NCBI GenBank assembly: GCA_032249735.1
Contig: JAVVHA010000016.1
Span: forward strand, 1-48,821
Origin: Dehalococcoidia bacterium
GTDB lineage: Bacteria; Chloroflexota; Dehalococcoidia; SM23-28-2; HRBIN24
Length of the DNA: 48,821 nt
Direction of reading: 5' to 3'
In this document: in pieces, positions 25,850-35,806 of the stretch
Layout: each line of letters starts with the position of its first letter
Position numbering within the stretch: the stretch's first letter is position 1
Made by a program: the position numbers and the translations under genes
The notes under the pieces: generated by a model
Seen by the model: the letters and a program-made list of their open reading frames with translations, nothing else
Databases searched by the model: none
Told to the model about the DNA's origin: nothing

Positions 25850-26563
25850 ATGCCGGTCATCTGGGAGCAGGTGATGGTGGAAGGAAGCCCCATGTGGTGC
25901 CACATCCACACCCCTGTAGGCGCTGGGCCCTTCCCTGGCGTGGTGGTGGTCATGCACGCCCCAGGGGTGGACGCCTTCATCCAGGACATATGCGAGCGCC
26001 TAGCTCTGGAGGGGTATGTGGCCATCGCTCCTGACCTCTACCATCGGCAGACGGAGGAGCAGGCGAAGGACGACCCCATCACCCGTATGGGGCGCCTGAG
26101 GGACACGGAGATCGCCCAAGATATCAATGCCGCCTTGGACCACCTGCGTTCCCTCCGCCAGGTATCCCCAGAGCGGATAGGCATCATCGGCTTCTGCATG
26201 GGGGGACGCATCGCCTACATGATGGCTGCCCTCAACCCCACCTTCCGCGCTTGCGTGGACTTCTATGGCGGCAATATCGCCGTCCCTTGGGGGGAAGGGC
26301 CCTCACCCCTCGACCTCACCCCCCAGATAAACTGCCCCGTGCTGGGGCTTTTCGGCGCCGAGGACACCAACCCCAGCCCTGAGGACGTGGCCCGCCTGGA
26401 TGCCGCCTTGACCAGGCACAACAAGCCCCATGAGTTCCACATATATCCAGGTGCCGGCCATGCCTTTATGAACCAGGCCCGACCTTCCTATCGCCCGGAG
26501 GCCGCCCGCGACGCCTGGCAGAGGTGCCTCGAGTTCCTAGGTCGCCACCTCAAAAGCACCTAG
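25850..26563 (+). CDS. Dienelactone hydrolase family protein
   Basis: A 237-residue alpha/beta hydrolase. The nucleophile is Cys116 in GFCMGGR, with Asp172 (GAEDTNPSPED) and His204 (GAGHAFMN) completing the triad, as in dienelactone hydrolase; this Cys-Asp-His set is characteristic of the family. It would hydrolyse lactones or esters, for example in aromatic ring degradation. The start is ATG 25850 with AGGAGGG nine bases before; ATG 25841 would leave no spacing. The stop shares a CTAG palindrome with the stop of the convergent gene at 26560. No other ring-cleavage gene is near. Confidence 0.85.
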   Translation: MPVIWEQVMVEGSPMWCHIHTPVGAGPFPGVVVVMHAPGVDAFIQDICERLALEGYVAIAPDLYHRQTEEQAKDDPITRMGRLRDTEIAQDINAALDHLRSLRQVSPERIGIIGFCMGGRIAYMMAALNPTFRACVDFYGGNIAVPWGEGPSPLDLTPQINCPVLGLFGAEDTNPSPEDVARLDAALTRHNKPHEFHIYPGAGHAFMNQARPSYRPEAARDAWQRCLEFLGRHLKST

Positions 26564-28998
26564 GGATAGATAAGGCTGGGGCCATGTGGCACCTTATAGA
26601 TGGTCAGGCGGTTCGTCCTGAAGGCCACCTCTAGGAAGCCGTCGAACTTGGCCAGGGCCTGTTCCCGCTGCGGCCATAAGGGGAGGGGAGCTTCCTCTAC
26701 ATACCTCTGCCGCTCCAAGGGGCCCACCACCACATAGCGCACATCGTATTTATGGAGGAGGCGCAGAGCCTCCTCCACATCGAGGGTGGTGTAGATGGTC
26801 TCGATGTCCCGCGCCCGCCCCACGATGGGTGAAGGATCGGGGCGCCATTGCCATTCGTGCCCTTCCCAGCCCAGCACTGTGACCAGGCCGGTGCGGGACG
26901 ATATGCGGGCGAAGTCGGTATAGTCTTCCCCGAACGCCTCTAGGACCACTGGCGAACCTCGCACATGCTGGCGGAACCACATGACGGCGGCGTATTCGTC
27001 GGGGGCGTGGCGGGCCACGAAAGCGAGGCCATCCAGGCCGCCCCCTGAGCGGCGGAAGGCCTCGGTGCGCTCCAAGGTCACCGTAAGGGGATAGATGAAG
27101 GCCGCCCCCATGATGGCCAACGTGACGCCTTGCCATGCCCATCGCAGGGGTGGGGAAAGCCAGGCTGAAGAGCCTTTCTTCCACAGAGCAGCGGCCCCGA
27201 TCCCGCCCACTACCGCCATGATGGTCCACGTGTGGTACCAGAACCGGAAAACGGTGTTGTAGCGAAAGCCCACCGGATCCCGAATGAAGAACGTCTCCCC
27301 ACCCAGCAGCAGGAGGAGGGCCACCAGGGCCAAGGCCATGGGAAGGGCGCGCTCATCGTCCCTCCCACGCAAGGTGCGGGCCAAACCTGCCCCCGCCATG
27401 GTCAAGAAGGCCACCAACATGAGCATGGTGAGCCAGTTGAGATTTTCCCACCTCAGCTTTACCTCCCCCAGGAATCCCTCGGGCCGTGGGGACACGTGGC
27501 CCAGCCCGCTCAGGGCCAGGACGGAAGCAGCCCAGGCCATAAGGGGGACCGCCCACGCCGCCACCCCAAACCCTACCTCCAGCCTCCCCCATCGTCGCCC
27601 CAAGGCGATGGTGGCCGTCCACCACAGAGGCAGCCAGAGGGAGGGGAGCCAAAAGATGAGGAAATGCACAGGCCTGGTCACCACGGAGTCGATAGGAGGG
27701 TAGCCTCGCACCAACCGCTCCCATGCCTGATTGGGGGCGATGCCCGAGGCGGGCGTCTGCAGCGTTACATAGAAGGGGGCATACAACAGCAGCGCCCCCA
27801 AAGCCAGGGCAGATGCCGCCCCGAGGGCGTCCCAGAAGCCCCCCTCTCGCCTGCCCTGGATGGCCCCCAGGGCCATCGCCCCCACCACCAGGACGCCGAA
27901 GGTGGGGAGGGCCCAAAGGTCGGTGAAGCCCAGCCCCCCTAGCACCATAGCCCCCACCACGGGCTGCCATGGCTCTCGCCGCCAGCGGAGTAAGACATGC
28001 CCTTCCCGCGCCTCTAGGTAGAGGTCTAGGGCCAGCCCTAAGGCCACCAGCGTCAGGGGCAGGGCCAGGACATGCGGATGCAGGTCGCCAAACTGGAAGC
28101 TGAAGAAGGGGAATTCCTGCACGTCCCAGGGAGATCCCATTCGAGTGGCCTTCCACCACCACCAAAAGGCCGTGGGATACCAGGCGCGACACGCGCTAGG
28201 GTTCAGGGTGCAGTTGTAGGGCTCCAGACCGTAGATGCCCACCCAGGCGTAGAAGGCACTGTTGCCGATGCCGTGGCGGGCTAGCAGCTCGAAAAGGCCG
28301 GCCAGGTTGCTCACCACCAGTAGCAGCACCACCGAGATCACCCCAGCTCCTAAGGCCCGCCACTGGCCCTCGCCACGGCCCAGGAGAAGCGTCAGGTTGT
28401 AGGCCAGGCCGAAGGCAGCACAGGCCGCCATGGCCGCCACCATGCAGAGCATCAGACCGAAGGTGATGCTCGTGGGCAGACCCGTCAGATGCGTAAGGGC
28501 CCCTGCCTGGACGTAGCCGAAGTAGTAATAATTGATAGAGTAGCCACTGAGCCAAGGGTCCGGCGGCGGGAAGCTGGAGGAGCGGACCACGCTGTTGAGG
28601 AAGGCCAGCTCGAAGGGTTTCTCGCCCCAGATGATCTCGGGCACGAAGGAATGCAGGAACACGGCCGCCAGGTAGGTGACAAGGAAAAGGGACTCTATCC
28701 ACAGGACATAGGGCCACCACATGCGCCACCAGGCCCGCCATTGCTCCCAGCGGGCCACCGCCACGGCCACGCCCACAGCTGCCAGCAGTACGAGGGCCAT
28801 CAGGAAGAGCCCCCGACCGTTAGGCGCTAGCCCCACCACACCAGCAATCCATCCCACGTAGGCCAGGGTCAGCAGGCCCAGGGGCTTGGCCAGGCTATAT
28901 CCCCTATCAGGGAGGCGGGGGAAGAGGAGGAAGGTTACGGGCAGAAAGGCCAAGGCCGCCCCTTGCGCCGCCGCCCAGAAGAAGAGCGCCTCCTTCAT
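26560..28998 (-). CDS. YYY-motif membrane protein (DUF2298, GT-C-like)
   Basis: An 812-residue polytopic membrane protein with about 14-16 helices. It carries the phrase YSINYYYFGYVQAGALTHLTG, the triple-Tyr feature that gave its name to the Chlor_Arch_YYY family known from Chloroflexi and archaea. An acidic-plus-aromatic outer loop (EIIWGEKPFELAFLN) follows an early helix, which is reminiscent of GT-C glycosyltransferases. The C-terminal soluble domain (about 650-812) includes RIGLV-like strands and KYDVRYVVVGPLERQRY, typical of this family. Function is unknown; transfer of sugars from polyprenyl-phosphate donors in envelope building is a plausible guess. The start is ATG 28998 behind GGGAGGGT. 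Confidence 0.75.
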   Translation of the reverse strand: MKEALFFWAAAQGAALAFLPVTFLLFPRLPDRGYSLAKPLGLLTLAYVGWIAGVVGLAPNGRGLFLMALVLLAAVGVAVAVARWEQWRAWWRMWWPYVLWIESLFLVTYLAAVFLHSFVPEIIWGEKPFELAFLNSVVRSSSFPPPDPWLSGYSINYYYFGYVQAGALTHLTGLPTSITFGLMLCMVAAMAACAAFGLAYNLTLLLGRGEGQWRALGAGVISVVLLLVVSNLAGLFELLARHGIGNSAFYAWVGIYGLEPYNCTLNPSACRAWYPTAFWWWWKATRMGSPWDVQEFPFFSFQFGDLHPHVLALPLTLVALGLALDLYLEAREGHVLLRWRREPWQPVVGAMVLGGLGFTDLWALPTFGVLVVGAMALGAIQGRREGGFWDALGAASALALGALLLYAPFYVTLQTPASGIAPNQAWERLVRGYPPIDSVVTRPVHFLIFWLPSLWLPLWWTATIALGRRWGRLEVGFGVAAWAVPLMAWAASVLALSGLGHVSPRPEGFLGEVKLRWENLNWLTMLMLVAFLTMAGAGLARTLRGRDDERALPMALALVALLLLLGGETFFIRDPVGFRYNTVFRFWYHTWTIMAVVGGIGAAALWKKGSSAWLSPPLRWAWQGVTLAIMGAAFIYPLTVTLERTEAFRRSGGGLDGLAFVARHAPDEYAAVMWFRQHVRGSPVVLEAFGEDYTDFARISSRTGLVTVLGWEGHEWQWRPDPSPIVGRARDIETIYTTLDVEEALRLLHKYDVRYVVVGPLERQRYVEEAPLPLWPQREQALAKFDGFLEVAFRTNRLTIYKVPHGPSLIYP

Positions 28999-29091: not shown

Positions 29092-29394
29092 ATGGTCACG
29101 CCAGAGCTAGTGCGGGAGGCCCTTAGGGATGTATACGACCCCGAAATCCCCGTCAACATCGTAGACCTGGGCCTCGTATACGATATCCAGGTGAAGGAGA
29201 ACGGCGTCGTCTACATCCTCATGACCCTTACATATCCTGGCTGCCCCATCGGCCCCGTCATAGTGGAACAGATAGAGGAAGCCGTGGGCTCCTTGCCGGG
29301 GGTCAAGTATGTGGACGTGGAGTTCACCTTCGACCCACCCTGGACGCCCGATAAGATGTCGGAGGAGGCCAAGGAAGCCCTGGGAATAGACTGA
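29092..29394 (+). CDS. MIP18/DUF59 family iron-sulfur assembly protein (SufT/PaaD-like)
   Basis: A 100-residue DUF59 protein: REALRDVYDPEIPVNIVDLGL at the N-terminus, a VYILMTLTYPGCPIGPVI strand-turn with the single conserved Cys, and VEFTFDPPWTPDKMSEEA at the end. SufT/MIP18-like proteins help mature Fe-S proteins; PaaD is a relative in phenylacetate degradation. AAGGAGG and a TAAAAT box (29066-29071) precede the ATG. The probable selenoprotein gene follows 10 bases after its stop and is likely in the same operon, so a link to redox or Fe-S biology is suggested. Confidence 0.88.
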   Translation: MVTPELVREALRDVYDPEIPVNIVDLGLVYDIQVKENGVVYILMTLTYPGCPIGPVIVEQIEEAVGSLPGVKYVDVEFTFDPPWTPDKMSEEAKEALGID

Positions 29395-29404
29395 GGAGGT
29401 AGGC

Positions 29405-29689
29405 ATGAGCTTAGAGGATCGCTTCCAGGGCAAGCTCTCTGTGGAGATCAAGTATTGCGTGCCTTGAGGGTACCTGCCCCTGGCCGCCTGGATGGCGACC
29501 GAGATCTGGCACGAGTTCGGGATGCAGGCTCCGGTGACCCTCATCCCTGTGGGGGGAGGACGCCTGGAGGTCTATCTGGGCGGGGAGAAGGTGTTCGACA
29601 GGAAGGCCGAGGGCGGAATCTACCCCGACTTGAAGCGAGTGCGGGAGATAAAGGAGCTCATCCGCCAACGCCTAGAGCAGGCGGGGTGA
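29405..29689 (+). CDS. Rdx (SelW/SelT/SelH)-family protein, probable selenoprotein
   Basis: A 94-residue thioredoxin-like Rdx-family protein. Translation from ATG 29405 reads MSLEDRFQGKLSVEIKYC, then Val-Pro, then TGA (29465-29467), then GYLPLAAWMATEIWHEF onward without a further stop to TGA 29687. Reading TGA as selenocysteine gives a C-V-P-U motif at residues 18-21, exactly where SelW-type proteins carry CxxU or CxxC. The downstream part matches the family: a GGGRLEVYLGGEKVFDRK strand and PDLKRVREIKELIR helix. A GGAGGT ribosome binding site lies 4 bases before the ATG. It follows the MIP18-like gene by 10 bases. An unaided gene caller would start at ATG 29492 and lose the active site. Selenocysteine machinery (selA, selB, selC, selD) is not in the window. 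Confidence 0.82.
29465..29500 (+). promoter_or_regulatory. Candidate bacterial SECIS element downstream of in-frame UGA
   Basis: Just behind the UGA, CGCC (29485-29488) pairs with GGCG (29494-29497) around a five-base loop UGGAU (29489-29493). One C-A mismatch below, GG (29482-29483) pairs with CC (29499-29500). The loop starts 21 bases after the UGA and its second base is G, agreeing with the known bacterial SECIS pattern (a hairpin 16-37 bases after UGA, with G among the first two loop bases). The stem is short, so the support is moderate. Confidence 0.5.
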
Positions 29690-29720: not shown

Positions 29721-31670
29721 CTAAGGCGTATCCCGCAGCAGGGACTGGATACGCCCCAGGGCCATGAGGGGCCAGTAGTTGCGATACAGGTGGTAGTTTA
29801 TGTAGAAGTCGCTGGGGAAGCCTGTGCCAGTGAAATAGGGCTCTTCCCAGGTCCCATCTTCCTGCTGGGTCTCCACCAGATAGCGTGCCCCGCGCACCAA
29901 AGCCTCTCCCACCAGGGCGTCGGCCCCCTCAGGCGCAGCAGCCACCAAAGCCATGAGGGCCCAGGCCGTCTGGGAGGCCGTGCTCTCGCCTCTGCCCTTA
30001 AGAGCGGGGTCATCATAGCTGGCACAGGACTCCCCCCATCCACCGTCGGGGTTCTGGTGCTCTAGGAGCCACCGCACCGCCCGCCGCACATACGGGCGGC
30101 CCATGTCCTCGCCGATGGCCCTCAGGGCGGGCAAGACCGCCCCCGTCCCATAGATGTAGTTGACACCCCACCGTCCCCACCAGGGCCCATCGGCCTCCTG
30201 CCGACGCCGCAAGAAGCGTAGGGCACGGGCCACCGGGGGGAAGGAGGGATCGTAGCCCAGGAGCCCCAGCATTTCCACCACATGGGCGGTGACATCCTCC
30301 GTGGGGTAGTCCAGCACCTCCCCGAAATCGCAGAAGGGCATGTGGGTGATGATGCGCCTGGTGTTGTCCTTATCGAAGGCGCCCCACCCTCCATCGCTGC
30401 TCTGCATGCCCAGGACCCACCGCAGCCCCCTCGCCAGAGCCCAGGCCTTGCGCTCCCTCTCCGGCAGACGGGTGCGGTGGAGGGCCATCATCACCTCCGC
30501 CGTGTCGTCCACATCGGGATAGACGTCGTTGTCGAACTCGAAGGACCAGCCCCCTGGCTCCACCCCCTTCACCTTCACCTGCCAGTCGCCGCCAGTGAGG
30601 ACCTGTTCCTTGAGGAGCCAGCGCGCCGCCCGCACCAGGGCCTCGTGGTCAGGGGGCAGGCCGGCGTCCAAAAGGCCTATCATGGCCAGGGCCGTATCCC
30701 ACACCGGCGAGATGCAGGCCTGAGGCGCATATACCTCCTCGTCCTCCACCCGGTACGCTCCTTCGAAGGCCTCCAGCCCTCGCTTCATCACCGGATGGTC
30801 CAGAGGGTATCCCAGGAGCTTGAGGGCGATGAGGGAGTAGATCCAGGGTGGCTGGATGCCTCCCCAGGCACCATCGGCCTCCTGTCGCGCCAGGATCCAC
30901 TTCTCGGCCTCCCTTATGGCCGCTCGCCGCAACCATGGCAGCGCCACCGCCTCGTAGCCGTGGAGGAGCCGGTCCACCGCCCAGAAGAAGCCCCGCCAAG
31001 ACAGAGCCGGCTGGGGCCTGGGGATGGGGCGCATAAACTTCTCCTTAGGCCCTGGGAAGAGCTCGTCCAGGCGAGCCTGCTCAGGCACCGCACACACAGG
31101 CCGCTTGGCCCAGATGATGAGGATGGGCACCACGGTGGCCCGTGCCCAAGACGCGAACTCATAGAGGTTGATGGGGAACCAGCTGGGCAGGAACATGAAC
31201 TCGGGGGGCATGGCCGGTAGGGCGGCCCAGTCCCACTGGCCGAAGAGGGCCAGCCACAGTTTAGTGAACACCCTGGTCCTGGGGACCCCTCCTTGCGAGA
31301 GGATAAAGGCGCGGGCCTTCTGCAAGAGGGGATCCTCCGCCGAGACGCCCGCCAACTTCATGGCAAAATAGGACTCCACGGTGGCGTTGAGGTCGGGGGG
31401 GCCGCCGTAATAGATGGCCCAGGTGCCATCGGGCCTGGCCTGGCGGCGCAGATAGTTGACCACCTTCCGCCACCGGCCCTCCTCCCCCACCCCCAGGAAG
31501 TGGGTGAGCATAAGGTACTCAGCTGCCATGGTGACGTTGCTCTCCAGCTCCCCCCACCAGTAGCCATCAGGGTGTTGGGTGCGCAAAAAGTAGTCCACGG
31601 ACCGGCCTATGGCCTGCGCTAGGGCATCCCGCAGACGCCCTGCCTCGCCTGGGGGAAGAACGGGCCACAC
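29721..31670 (-). CDS. shc: Squalene-hopene cyclase
   Basis: A 649-residue terpene cyclase that converts squalene to hopene/hopanol. The catalytic acid motif DVDDTAE is at residues about 386-392, and several QW-type repeats are visible (QEADGAWGG at about 263-271, SSDGGWGAF, NPDGGWGES, QEDGTWEE). Length and motif positions fit SHC of about 630-650 residues and not oxidosqualene cyclase, whose motif lacks the extra DD. The start is GTG 31670, behind GGAGGTG. It is the last gene of the hopanoid operon; hpnG ends 3 bases upstream. Confidence 0.95.
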   Translation of the reverse strand: MWPVLPPGEAGRLRDALAQAIGRSVDYFLRTQHPDGYWWGELESNVTMAAEYLMLTHFLGVGEEGRWRKVVNYLRRQARPDGTWAIYYGGPPDLNATVESYFAMKLAGVSAEDPLLQKARAFILSQGGVPRTRVFTKLWLALFGQWDWAALPAMPPEFMFLPSWFPINLYEFASWARATVVPILIIWAKRPVCAVPEQARLDELFPGPKEKFMRPIPRPQPALSWRGFFWAVDRLLHGYEAVALPWLRRAAIREAEKWILARQEADGAWGGIQPPWIYSLIALKLLGYPLDHPVMKRGLEAFEGAYRVEDEEVYAPQACISPVWDTALAMIGLLDAGLPPDHEALVRAARWLLKEQVLTGGDWQVKVKGVEPGGWSFEFDNDVYPDVDDTAEVMMALHRTRLPERERKAWALARGLRWVLGMQSSDGGWGAFDKDNTRRIITHMPFCDFGEVLDYPTEDVTAHVVEMLGLLGYDPSFPPVARALRFLRRRQEADGPWWGRWGVNYIYGTGAVLPALRAIGEDMGRPYVRRAVRWLLEHQNPDGGWGESCASYDDPALKGRGESTASQTAWALMALVAAAPEGADALVGEALVRGARYLVETQQEDGTWEEPYFTGTGFPSDFYINYHLYRNYWPLMALGRIQSLLRDTP

Positions 31671-31673
31671 AGT

Positions 31674-32372
31674 TCACCTCCAGATCTGGAAAAGGGCAAG
31701 AGCCATACGCCGCAACCGCAGAAGGGCACGCGCCACCCCCACCATCAGGGGCAGGGCCGCCCCTGGACGGCCTGCCAGAGAGGAGAGGCGCCACCTCCCT
31801 TGGTCGGTCACCGGCAGGTGGTCGTGCAGGGCGTCCGCCACCGCTCTGATGGCCAGGAAAGGCAGCCCACGTGCTATCGCCTCCTGGGCCAGCCAGTAAT
31901 CCTCCATCTGCACCAGGGCGGCGCCGAGGCGACGGGCCACCTCCTCCTTGTCCGCCGGGCGGGCCATCACCGCCCGCACCGTGCAGGAGGGGCCGGTGGT
32001 GCAGGGCAGGCCCGCCCGCTGGGCCGCCTGCTGGGCCATCTCCACCAGCCAAGGCGTGGTAGGCAGGGGCTCACGCTCCCCATCCCACAGGGCGATGGCC
32101 GTGGCCAAGAAGATATGGCCGCGACCAAGCCCCTCCACCGTGGCCCCGCCCAGGCCCATGGCCAACGCCGCCTGCGGCAGGTACGCCCGCAGCACCTGCC
32201 CGGCAGCGGTGGCCGCCCTGTTCCCCATACCCACGCGACACACCATCACCTCTCGTCCCGCCAGCCAGCCCTGCACCAGGTGTAACCCCTTTTGGACCCG
32301 CCTCTCCCGCCCCTGTAACAGGCTGGCGATGGCCCAGGCCTCCCATGCCAAGGGGGCGAAGACCACCACCAT
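31674..32372 (-). CDS. hpnG: Adenosylhopane nucleosidase/phosphorylase HpnG
   Basis: A 232-residue protein of the nucleoside phosphorylase (PNP/UDP) fold. HpnG removes adenine from adenosylhopane to give (phospho)ribosylhopane. Seen: VFAPLAWEAWAI at the N-terminus, VCRVGMGNRAATAAGQVL, a GLGGA strand, a VQMEDYWLAQEA helix with the family acidic residue, and FLAIRAVADALHDH. The ATG is 4 bases after the hpnH stop with GTGAGG as ribosome binding site, and shc follows. In isolation it could be an MTA/SAH nucleosidase, but placement between hpnH and shc settles it. Confidence 0.88.
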   Translation of the reverse strand: MVVVFAPLAWEAWAIASLLQGRERRVQKGLHLVQGWLAGREVMVCRVGMGNRAATAAGQVLRAYLPQAALAMGLGGATVEGLGRGHIFLATAIALWDGEREPLPTTPWLVEMAQQAAQRAGLPCTTGPSCTVRAVMARPADKEEVARRLGAALVQMEDYWLAQEAIARGLPFLAIRAVADALHDHLPVTDQGRWRLSSLAGRPGAALPLMVGVARALLRLRRMALALFQIWR

Positions 32373-32376
32373 GACC

Positions 32377-33390
32377 TCACGCGCCGCGCAAAGAGCGCCA
32401 GGCCAGCTCCAACATCTCCCTGGGGTGGGACATGGCCCGCAGGATGGCCGACCCCTCGAAGCCGCAGTGCATCATACACGTCTCACAGCGCGGGTCCTTG
32501 CCCCAGCCGTACTTGTGCCACTCCACAGTGGTCATGAGCTCCTGGAAGCTCTGGGCGTGGCCATCGGCGATGAGGTAGCAGGGCTTGCGCCACCCCAGCA
32601 CTGTATACGTGGGGGTGGTCCATTGGCTGCACTCATAGAGGCGCTTGCCCTGAAGGAAGTCGCGGTAAAGGGGGTTGTTGTAGAAGCGAATGCCCCGCTT
32701 GCACCCCTCGAAGATACGGCGGAAGAAGGTCTGGGCCTCCTGTCTCTGCATGAATATAGGGTGGTGGGCCACCTCCTTATAGGCGAAGCCCGGAGATACC
32801 ATCATCCCCTCCACACCCATCTCGTTGAGCATCTGGAAGAGGTGGTGGTACTCCTCAGGGTCGGTGCCGTTGTAAAGGGTGGTGTTGGTGCACACCCGGT
32901 AGCCCCTCTTACGAGCCTCCCAGATCATGCGGATGGCCACATCGTAGACGCCCTTGCGCTCTACCGCGCGGTCGTGGGTTGGCCGCAGGCCGTCCAGATG
33001 GACCACGAAGGCGAAATACTTGGACGGGGGGATGACCTTGAAGGCCCGCTTGTAAAGCAGGGTGTTGGTGCAAAGATACACGTAGCGCTTTTGCTTAATG
33101 ATGCCCTGCACTATCTCCCCGATCTGAGGGTGCATGAGGGGCTCCCCGCCCGCTATAGACACCACCGGGGCGTCGCACTCCTCCACGGCCCGCAGGGCCT
33201 CCTCCACGCTCATGTAGCGGTCCAAGACATCGGCGTACTCGCGGATGCGTCCGCACCCGGTGCAGGTGAGGTTACAGGCCTCCAAGGGCTCCAGGATCAT
33301 GGTGAGGGGGAAGTATTTGCGACCTTTTATCTTCTGCTTGATAAGGTAGAAGGTGAGCTTCAGCGTGAGCCCCAAAGGTTGGCCGGCCAT
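32377..33390 (-). CDS. hpnH: Adenosyl-hopene transferase HpnH (radical SAM)
   Basis: A 337-residue radical SAM enzyme that joins a 5-deoxyadenosyl group to diploptene to give adenosylhopane, the start of hopanoid side-chain extension. The iron-sulfur motif CNLTCTGC is at residues 39-46; the SAM-binding region has SIAGGEPLMHPQIGEI. The C-terminal segment contains GWGKDPRCETCMMHCGFE, with the Cys residues found in HpnH. GAGGAGGG lies 7 bases before ATG 33390. It sits between the polyprenyl synthase and hpnG genes. Confidence 0.93.
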   Translation of the reverse strand: MAGQPLGLTLKLTFYLIKQKIKGRKYFPLTMILEPLEACNLTCTGCGRIREYADVLDRYMSVEEALRAVEECDAPVVSIAGGEPLMHPQIGEIVQGIIKQKRYVYLCTNTLLYKRAFKVIPPSKYFAFVVHLDGLRPTHDRAVERKGVYDVAIRMIWEARKRGYRVCTNTTLYNGTDPEEYHHLFQMLNEMGVEGMMVSPGFAYKEVAHHPIFMQRQEAQTFFRRIFEGCKRGIRFYNNPLYRDFLQGKRLYECSQWTTPTYTVLGWRKPCYLIADGHAQSFQELMTTVEWHKYGWGKDPRCETCMMHCGFEGSAILRAMSHPREMLELAWRSLRGA

Positions 33391-33408
33391 ATGTGCGCCC
33401 TCCTCACG

Positions 33409-34434
33409 CTAGTATTCCCTCTCCACCAAGAAGGAGACCACGGCCTCCAGCTCCTGTCGCGGCCCTGGGGCCAGAGGCAGGGAGGACAAGGTGTCCATGG
33501 CCTCCTGCAATAGTTCATGGGCCAGGGTCAAAGAGCGTTGGCGCGCTTCCACCTCCTCCAGAGCCTGCATCACCCGTTGCACCATCTCCTCGTCCACGGT
33601 GGGGATGGTGTATGCGGCCACCACCGTCTCACGCTGCGGGCCCTCCGTCTCCAGGGCGTAGACGATGGGGAGGCTCTTCTTGCGGCGTCGGATATCGGCG
33701 CCGGCGGGCTTCCCCGTGCGGGAGGGGTCGCCCCAGATACCGAGGACATCGTCCTTGATCTGGAAGGCCACCCCCAGCTGGCGCCCTGCCCTGCCCATGG
33801 CCTCCCAGACCTGGGTGTCTGGGGTGGCGCAGATGGCCCCCAGGGAGAGGGCAGCCGCAAATAGGGCGCCCGTCTTGCGCCTCACCATCTCCAGGTAGGC
33901 CTGCGTTGTTATGTCGACTCGGTCCTCGAACTGCAAGTCCATCACCTGGCCCTCCACCATCTCCAGGGTGGCCCGGGCCAGGGTAGACACGGCCACCACC
34001 CCCCTCTCAGGGGGGACCCCTGCCTCGGGCAGGCGCGCTAAGGCCTCTTGGGCCAGGGCCAGGAGGGCGTCGCCGGCGTTGATGGCCTGCCCTTGGCCCC
34101 ATATGGCCCAGACGGTGAGGCGGTGCCTCCTCTCCCTGTCCTGGTCCTGGATGTCGTCGTGGACGAGGGAGAAGTTGTGCACCAGCTCCAGGGCCACGGC
34201 CGCTGGCAGGGCCTGCTCCCACCTGCCCCCGAGGGCCTCGCAGGTCAAAAGGCACAAGATGGGCCTTAGGGCCTTGCCTAGGGGGCCGGGCTGGGGCCGG
34301 CCCTGGGCGTCCTCCCAGCCCAGGTGGTACCGCATCATGCGGTACAGCAGGGTTGGCTCCCTGGGCTCCAGGAAGGAGCCCAGGGCCGCTACCACCTGCC
34401 CCCTCAGCTCCTCTACCCGCTCTGGCAGGGTCAA
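33409..34434 (-). CDS. Polyprenyl diphosphate synthase (FPP/GGPP synthase type)
   Basis: A 341-residue all-helical trans-prenyltransferase. The first Asp-rich motif DDIQD is at residues 93-97 with Phe five residues before it; the second reads DDVLGIWGD from 228. Chain-length rules (aromatic residue at -5) suggest a short product, FPP or GGPP. Its place between yjbQ and hpnH in the hopanoid operon favours FPP as feedstock for HpnCD. The start is a TTG at 34434 behind GGGGAGTGAGG, 4 bases after the yjbQ stop. Confidence 0.85.
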   Translation of the reverse strand: MTLPERVEELRGQVVAALGSFLEPREPTLLYRMMRYHLGWEDAQGRPQPGPLGKALRPILCLLTCEALGGRWEQALPAAVALELVHNFSLVHDDIQDQDRERRHRLTVWAIWGQGQAINAGDALLALAQEALARLPEAGVPPERGVVAVSTLARATLEMVEGQVMDLQFEDRVDITTQAYLEMVRRKTGALFAAALSLGAICATPDTQVWEAMGRAGRQLGVAFQIKDDVLGIWGDPSRTGKPAGADIRRRKKSLPIVYALETEGPQRETVVAAYTIPTVDEEMVQRVMQALEEVEARQRSLTLAHELLQEAMDTLSSLPLAPGPRQELEAVVSFLVEREY

Positions 34435-34438
34435 GGCC

Positions 34439-34876
34439 TCACTCCCCTATGAGCTGGACCACCACCTCACGGTCGCGCCCATGATCCAGCTCCACCAGGA
34501 ATATGCGCTGCCACTGGCCCAGCAGGAGCTTCCCCTCCACCACGGGAACAGCCTCGCTGGCACCGAGAAGCAAGTGCTGACAGTGGGAATGCCCGTTGGG
34601 CCGCTCCCCGTTTTGGGAGAAGGCGTGAGCGTAGACGTTGTGCCTATATTCGCCCTCCGGCGGGGCCAAGCGGCGCAGCATGTCCTCCATGTCCTGCAGA
34701 AGGTGGGGACAATTCTCGTTGATGCGCACGGCGGCCGTGGTATGGCGGGAAAAGATCACAGCAAAGCCATTGGTGATGGCCGCCTCCCTTACAGCTTCCA
34801 TCACCTGGTCGGTGATGTCCACGAACTGAGGCCCACGCTGGGTGCGTATACGGATGGTCTGCGTCAGGCACCGCAT
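34439..34876 (-). CDS. yjbQ: YjbQ family protein (UPF0047)
   Basis: A 145-residue UPF0047 protein. Conserved phrases are GFAVIFSRHTTAAVRINENCPHLLQDM, SHCQHLLLGASEAVPVVEGKLLLGQWQRIFLVELDHG-type strands, with the His and Glu residues that bind a metal ion. E. coli YjbQ has been linked to thiamine-phosphate synthase side activity; the true role is unsettled. It overlaps ispH by 13 bases and is followed by the prenyl synthase, so it is part of the isoprenoid operon; no thiamine genes are nearby. Confidence 0.85.
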   Translation of the reverse strand: MRCLTQTIRIRTQRGPQFVDITDQVMEAVREAAITNGFAVIFSRHTTAAVRINENCPHLLQDMEDMLRRLAPPEGEYRHNVYAHAFSQNGERPNGHSHCQHLLLGASEAVPVVEGKLLLGQWQRIFLVELDHGRDREVVVQLIGE

Positions 34877-35763
34877 GACTTCTCACCTCCTGAGGAAGAT
34901 GAGGGGATGGCCGCACAGGCGCCATCCCCCAGTCGGGCCAGCGTCTCCACCACCTCATCGATGGACTCGTCAGGCGTGGAAGCGCCAGCAGTGACCCCCA
35001 CCACCTCCTTGCCCACCAGCCAGGCGGGGTCCAGCTCCGCTGCCGTCTCCACATGATAGGTCTCCACCCCAGCCTCGCGGCAGGTCTGGGCCAGCTTGCG
35101 GGTGTTGGCGCTGTTCTTCCCCCCCACCACGATGACCAGGTCGCATTGGGCGGCCAGCTCACGCGCCGCCTCGTAGCGCTCGTCCGTCTCCGGGCAGGTG
35201 GTGTTGATGACGCGAAGCTCGTTGAGGCGGCCGATGTTGCGGGCCACGAAGCGGGCCACGAATTGGGCGAAGGAGGCCTCACTCTTGGTGGTCTGGGAGA
35301 GGAGGGCGGCCTTCCGCCGTGGGATCTCCACCTCCGCCTCGGGGTCCAGGATGGCCACACCCTGCCCCCGTGTCCAGGCCAAGACCCCCCTCACCTCGGG
35401 GTGCTCGGCCTCGCCGTAGATAATGACCTTAAACCCCTCATCCACCAGGCGCTGCGCTACCTTCTGGGACTTGCGCACGATGGGGCAGGTGGCATCGATG
35501 AACCGCAGCCCCCGCTGACGGGCCAGCTCCACGATCTCCGGCCCTCGCCCGTGGGCGGTAACGGCGATGGCCTGCTCCCGCACCTCTTCCAGGGATGAGA
35601 CCACCCGTACCCCCTTGTCTTGGAGGCGGCGCACCACCACCGGGTTGTGGACCACAGACCCCAGGCTAGCGATGGGCCCCTCCTGAGCCCCTTGTTCCAC
35701 CATCTCGATGGCCCGCCTCACCCCGAAGCAGAAGCCCATCACCTTGGCCTTGACGATCTTCAT
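34864..35763 (-). CDS. ispH: 4-hydroxy-3-methylbut-2-enyl diphosphate reductase IspH
   Basis: The last MEP-pathway enzyme, reducing HMBPP to IPP and DMAPP with a [4Fe-4S] cluster. The 299-residue protein has the three cluster cysteines at 12 (GFCFGV), 93 (DATCP) and 190 (NTTCPET), the His residues in VVHN (39) and EHPE (121), and the AGASTPDESI motif at the C-terminus. ATG 35763 is preceded by AGGTGAGG with 6-base spacing; an upstream ATG at 35784 is less good. It follows hpnE by 43 bases in the hopanoid operon and supplies the precursors. Confidence 0.94.
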   Translation of the reverse strand: MKIVKAKVMGFCFGVRRAIEMVEQGAQEGPIASLGSVVHNPVVVRRLQDKGVRVVSSLEEVREQAIAVTAHGRGPEIVELARQRGLRFIDATCPIVRKSQKVAQRLVDEGFKVIIYGEAEHPEVRGVLAWTRGQGVAILDPEAEVEIPRRKAALLSQTTKSEASFAQFVARFVARNIGRLNELRVINTTCPETDERYEAARELAAQCDLVIVVGGKNSANTRKLAQTCREAGVETYHVETAAELDPAWLVGKEVVGVTAGASTPDESIDEVVETLARLGDGACAAIPSSSSGGEKSCGA

Positions 35764-35806
35764 GGTATCCCTCACCTTTCGCACCAGACTATAAGCGATG
35801 AGTGCC

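Follow-up and report, generated by a model that had tools for sequence, protein, structure and literature searches.

The question raised by this locus is whether a TGA at position 29465 closes a reading frame or is read within it as selenocysteine (Sec). The locus lies in a stretch of 48,821 nucleotides from a Dehalococcoidia bacterium, the whole of which is referred to here as the window. A preliminary description had proposed an overlooked selenoprotein of the Rdx/SelW family, with 73 residues beyond an in-frame TGA, a ribosome binding site ahead of the start, and a fragment of 65 residues from 29492 as all that standard gene calling would give. Direct translation and reading of the sequence bore out these three points. 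The frame opens at ATG 29405, carries the TGA (29465-29467) as residue 21 and continues for 73 sense codons to a terminal TGA at 29687-29689, and the plain ORF list holds just 29492-29689 (65 aa) of it. The predicted protein reads MSLEDRFQGKLSVEIKYCVPUGYLPLAAWMATEIWHEFG...QRLEQAG. The features of the locus are as follows:

29092..29394, plus strand: PF01883 gene (SUF-associated / MIP18-type Fe-S assembly), E 1.7e-24, 10 nt upstream of the SelW-like ATG
29394..29399, plus strand: Shine-Dalgarno AGGAGG, 5 nt before ATG 29405, read directly
29405..29689, plus strand: predicted SelW-like (Rdx) selenoprotein gene, 94 aa, with C18-V-P-U21, PF10262 and TIGR02174 matches and a conserved TGA
29465..29467, plus strand: in-frame TGA, predicted to be read as Sec (conserved TGA; Sec machinery in the genome)
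29481..29501, plus strand: predicted bacterial SECIS hairpin (synonymous freezing of stem codons; covariation among Sec homologues but not among Cys ones; fit to a published model)

When the TGA was taken as a residue, the protein matched PF10262 (Rdx) with 60.4 bits (cut-off 22.6; E 1.9e-16) and TIGR02174 (SelT/SelW/SelH) with 41.4 bits (curated cut-off 34.2), and with both scores above the curated cut-offs the Rdx/SelW assignment was upheld. The CxxC/CxxU motif following the first strand is C18-V-P-U21. Every aligned sequence has C or U at its two redox positions, and the TGA falls on the second of these as had been described. Four solved Rdx structures with Cys were matched by sequence (2p0g, 2fa8, 2ojl, and 2obk; best 2p0g, E 6e-12) over approximately 75-78 aligned residues, sharing the position of the CxxC; they differ in having Cys for Sec, and a SECIS is not expected in them. 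The protein also belongs by sequence to the same family as NF041051 (SelTWH_Campy), scoring 52.4 bits but remaining below the 88-bit cut-off of that model.

Close homologues (59-80% identical) were available from 16 genomes of the same order and from six of a sister family of the class. A TGA was found at the same codon in 22 of these 22, the window gene being counted, and Cys in none. At the level of the order, a close homologue was present in 16 of 25 genomes and the TGA in 16/16. It could be supposed that an ordinary Cys SelW gene has here been altered by a sequencing error or by a pseudogene lesion, as TGA is one base away from TGC or TGT and Cys paralogues do exist in the class. However, the same-codon TGA recurs in separate genomes, having turned up independently in each of the close homologues read, and is therefore not a base-call error but genuine. 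In addition, the frame downstream is under protein constraint, with residues of the close homologues kept on both sides of the TGA despite third-position divergence. An error or a lesion is thus extremely improbable.

The same conservation bears on the reading of the UGA as a true stop, with a shorter protein initiated internally from ATG 29492. This would agree with the 65-aa ORF that ordinary gene calling yields. Against it, the residues E-I-x-Y-C ahead of the TGA are conserved with synonymous variation, and the 65-aa form would be without the first strand and the entire redox motif; ATG 29492 also starts inside the loop of the hairpin and encodes a family-conserved position. Such a product is very unlikely, and given the TGA in 22/22 close homologues the true-stop reading was rejected together with those of sequencing error and pseudogene.

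Across the class, a match was found in 105 of 393 genomes. The rows read numbered 81 (57 Sec and 24 Cys, three of the latter coming from Aenigmatarchaeota and Microgenomates outside the class), with Cys at the TGA-aligned position in L038, L039, L055, and others. In a tree of these rows, which rests on 86 columns and is resolved only in part, the window protein was placed in a fully supported group of 58 rows, in which Sec predominates and Cys forms are nested. This nesting suggests Sec-to-Cys losses. One of the nested forms is the Cys SelW of L055, whose genome also has a Sec paralogue (L088); it is likely a Sec-to-Cys conversion that lost its hairpin. Tandem pairs of a Sec SelW gene with a Cys SelW paralogue, approximately 310-370 nt from start to start, occur in several genomes of the class (L062, L079, L080, L081, L082, L083, and L084); Cys rows as a group are without SECIS covariation. 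No relative was found in the viral contigs searched, and plasmid matches were at most about 40% identical among the five listed.

A small SECIS-like hairpin after the UGA had also been described. It is present, with arms at 29481-29488 (UGG-C-CGCC) and 29494-29501 (GGCG-A-CCG) around an apical loop UGGAU (29489-29493). The 5-nt loop lies 21 nt after the UGA on an upper stem of 4 bp with three further pairs (-10.2 kcal/mol), in agreement with every constraint of the published bSECIS model (loop of 3-9 nt, upper stem of 4-16 bp, G in the first two loop positions, a distance of 16-37 nt to the UGA and MFE <= -7.5, as quoted in PMC13188914). As stand-alone evidence the hairpin did not hold up: in single-sequence folding it was not more stable than shuffles (z -0.34 to 1.23), 5 of 60 synonymous randomisations reached its energy, and an Rfam search returned nothing relevant. 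Since its folding energy is unremarkable, the hairpin on its own is no evidence, and it is the comparative data that make it convincing.

Among 21 close homologues, codons +6, +7, +10, and +11 after the UGA, which form the two arms, were without synonymous variation (GCC 21/21, GCC 19/19, GCG 21/21, and ACC 20/20), with Ala, Thr, Pro, and Gly codons outside the hairpin varying freely. Columns of zero variation made up 4/6 within codons +5 to +12 (the hairpin) and 1/48 elsewhere (Mann-Whitney p 0.0013, a value which, like the other given below, is optimistic because homologous rows are related). In 33 Sec sequences, 83% of stem cells were paired, with 24 double-change cells against 1-9 in slid controls, and stem covariation was 0.345 against 0.153 when shuffled, a score reached by none of 500 shuffles. 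RNAalifold picked the upper stem unaided, with compensatory changes in three of its four pairs. Pairing at the stem positions was found in 78% of cells in Sec homologues compared with 33% in Cys homologues, and under synonymous randomisation the stability of the SECIS-like hairpin gave a mean z of -1.09 in Sec rows and +0.07 in Cys rows (p 9e-6; rows related). The fit is not uniform, with pair 20-34 mismatched in 24 of 33 rows and weaker hairpins in L034 and in the close homologues L049 and L050. Taken as comparative sequence evidence, synonymous-site freezing among close relatives and covariation, with compensatory pair changes in Sec homologues farther away that are missing from Cys homologues, support a SECIS function for the hairpin.

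The genome of the window (1.73 Mb, 28 contigs, 99% complete) was found to hold all of the Sec genes whose presence the preliminary description had proposed to check: a tRNA-Sec (71 bits; called by ARAGORN as tRNA-SeC with anticodon TCA), SelA (567 bits), SelB (342 bits over two matched stretches), and SelD (371 bits). Its selD (L019, C14:30080-31003) is a Sec gene itself, with an in-frame TGA in TCAGUAGKAG and a strong hairpin downstream. In the order, SelA was above the cut-off in 20 of 25 genomes and was matched in all seven of those of good quality. It might still be argued that the UGA is read as Cys or Trp through near-cognate or suppressor readthrough while the Sec machinery serves other genes, as decoding is not revealed by sequence alone. 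The completeness of the machinery, the covarying SECIS specific to the TGA forms and the placement of the UGA exactly at the Cys position of homologues all speak against this, and make it a highly improbable account.

The conserved TGA, the Sec genes and the constrained hairpin together give good support to the view that the standard Sec machinery of bacteria reads through the UGA. The interpretation as a selenoprotein is therefore supported from sequence, and we put at roughly 0.96 the probability that this is a SelW-like Rdx selenoprotein whose UGA at 29465 is decoded as Sec via the hairpin at 29481-29501, Sec insertion itself being what we infer. Ribosomes would start at 29405, and SelA would form Sec-tRNA-Sec with selenophosphate that SelD provides. 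The hairpin would recruit SelB carrying this tRNA at the UGA, and translation would run on to 29689. The product would be a small protein of thioredoxin-like fold in which C18-x-x-U21 cycles between thiol/selenol and selenenylsulfide, and would thus act as a redox carrier or reductase dependent on thiols.

In proteins of thioredoxin-like fold a CxxU pair forms a redox centre of the thiol/selenol type, and by analogy a redox role is probable for the window protein. The function of SelW-like proteins has been regarded as unclear, with the CxxU motif suggesting redox (PMC1088965), and those of bacteria are largely uncharacterised (PMC13188914). The PF01883 gene directly precedes the Sec SelW-like gene in 16 of 16 order-level loci, and the two are likely in the same operon; its product also matches TIGR02945 (2.3e-35), below the cut-off. 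As speculation, the pairing hints at Fe-S cluster work. That in this order the selenoprotein is a redox partner dedicated to the Fe-S assembly-type protein encoded next to it is doubtful. Downstream, a convergent squalene-hopene cyclase gene was present in 11 of 16 order-level loci. In the window it belongs to a minus-strand hopanoid and isoprenoid cluster (29721-35784) with an HpnG-like phosphorylase (under the cut-off), HpnH, IspH, and a polyprenyl synthase with similarity to encapsulin cargo NF041169 (likewise below the cut-off). A large membrane protein with a Chlor_Arch_YYY domain (TIGR03662, 435 bits) is encoded on the minus strand at 26560-28998.

SelW-like CxxU proteins are a known bacterial selenoprotein family, catalogued since 2005-2006, of which the window gene is a further member. 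The Sargasso Sea set yielded 48 SelW-like genes (PMC1088965), and 10 were counted in a 2006 genome survey, where Chloroflexi had three selenoproteins (PMC1794560); the family was the most abundant of selenoproteins in the Global Ocean set (PMC2398784) and is listed as a PF10262 CxxU selenoprotein (PMC13188914). With these relatives (PF10262/TIGR02174) the window gene shares the predicted fold family, the CxxU, the UGA with its immediate downstream hairpin and the small size (PMC1088965, PMC1794560, PMC2398784, PMC13188914). It differs in its Chloroflexota (Dehalococcoidia-related) subclade and in the PF01883 neighbour of its order, with no difference at the level of the family. No description of SelW-like selenoproteins from this lineage was found in the open papers searched.

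The window gene is thus a firmly supported member of the family, to which 57 Sec sequences of a single class are added along with it, and it illustrates how such genes are truncated by ordinary gene calling. The conserved PF01883 neighbour offers a testable lead on SelW-like function, and the partnership, if true, would be the first concrete pathway for a bacterial SelW.
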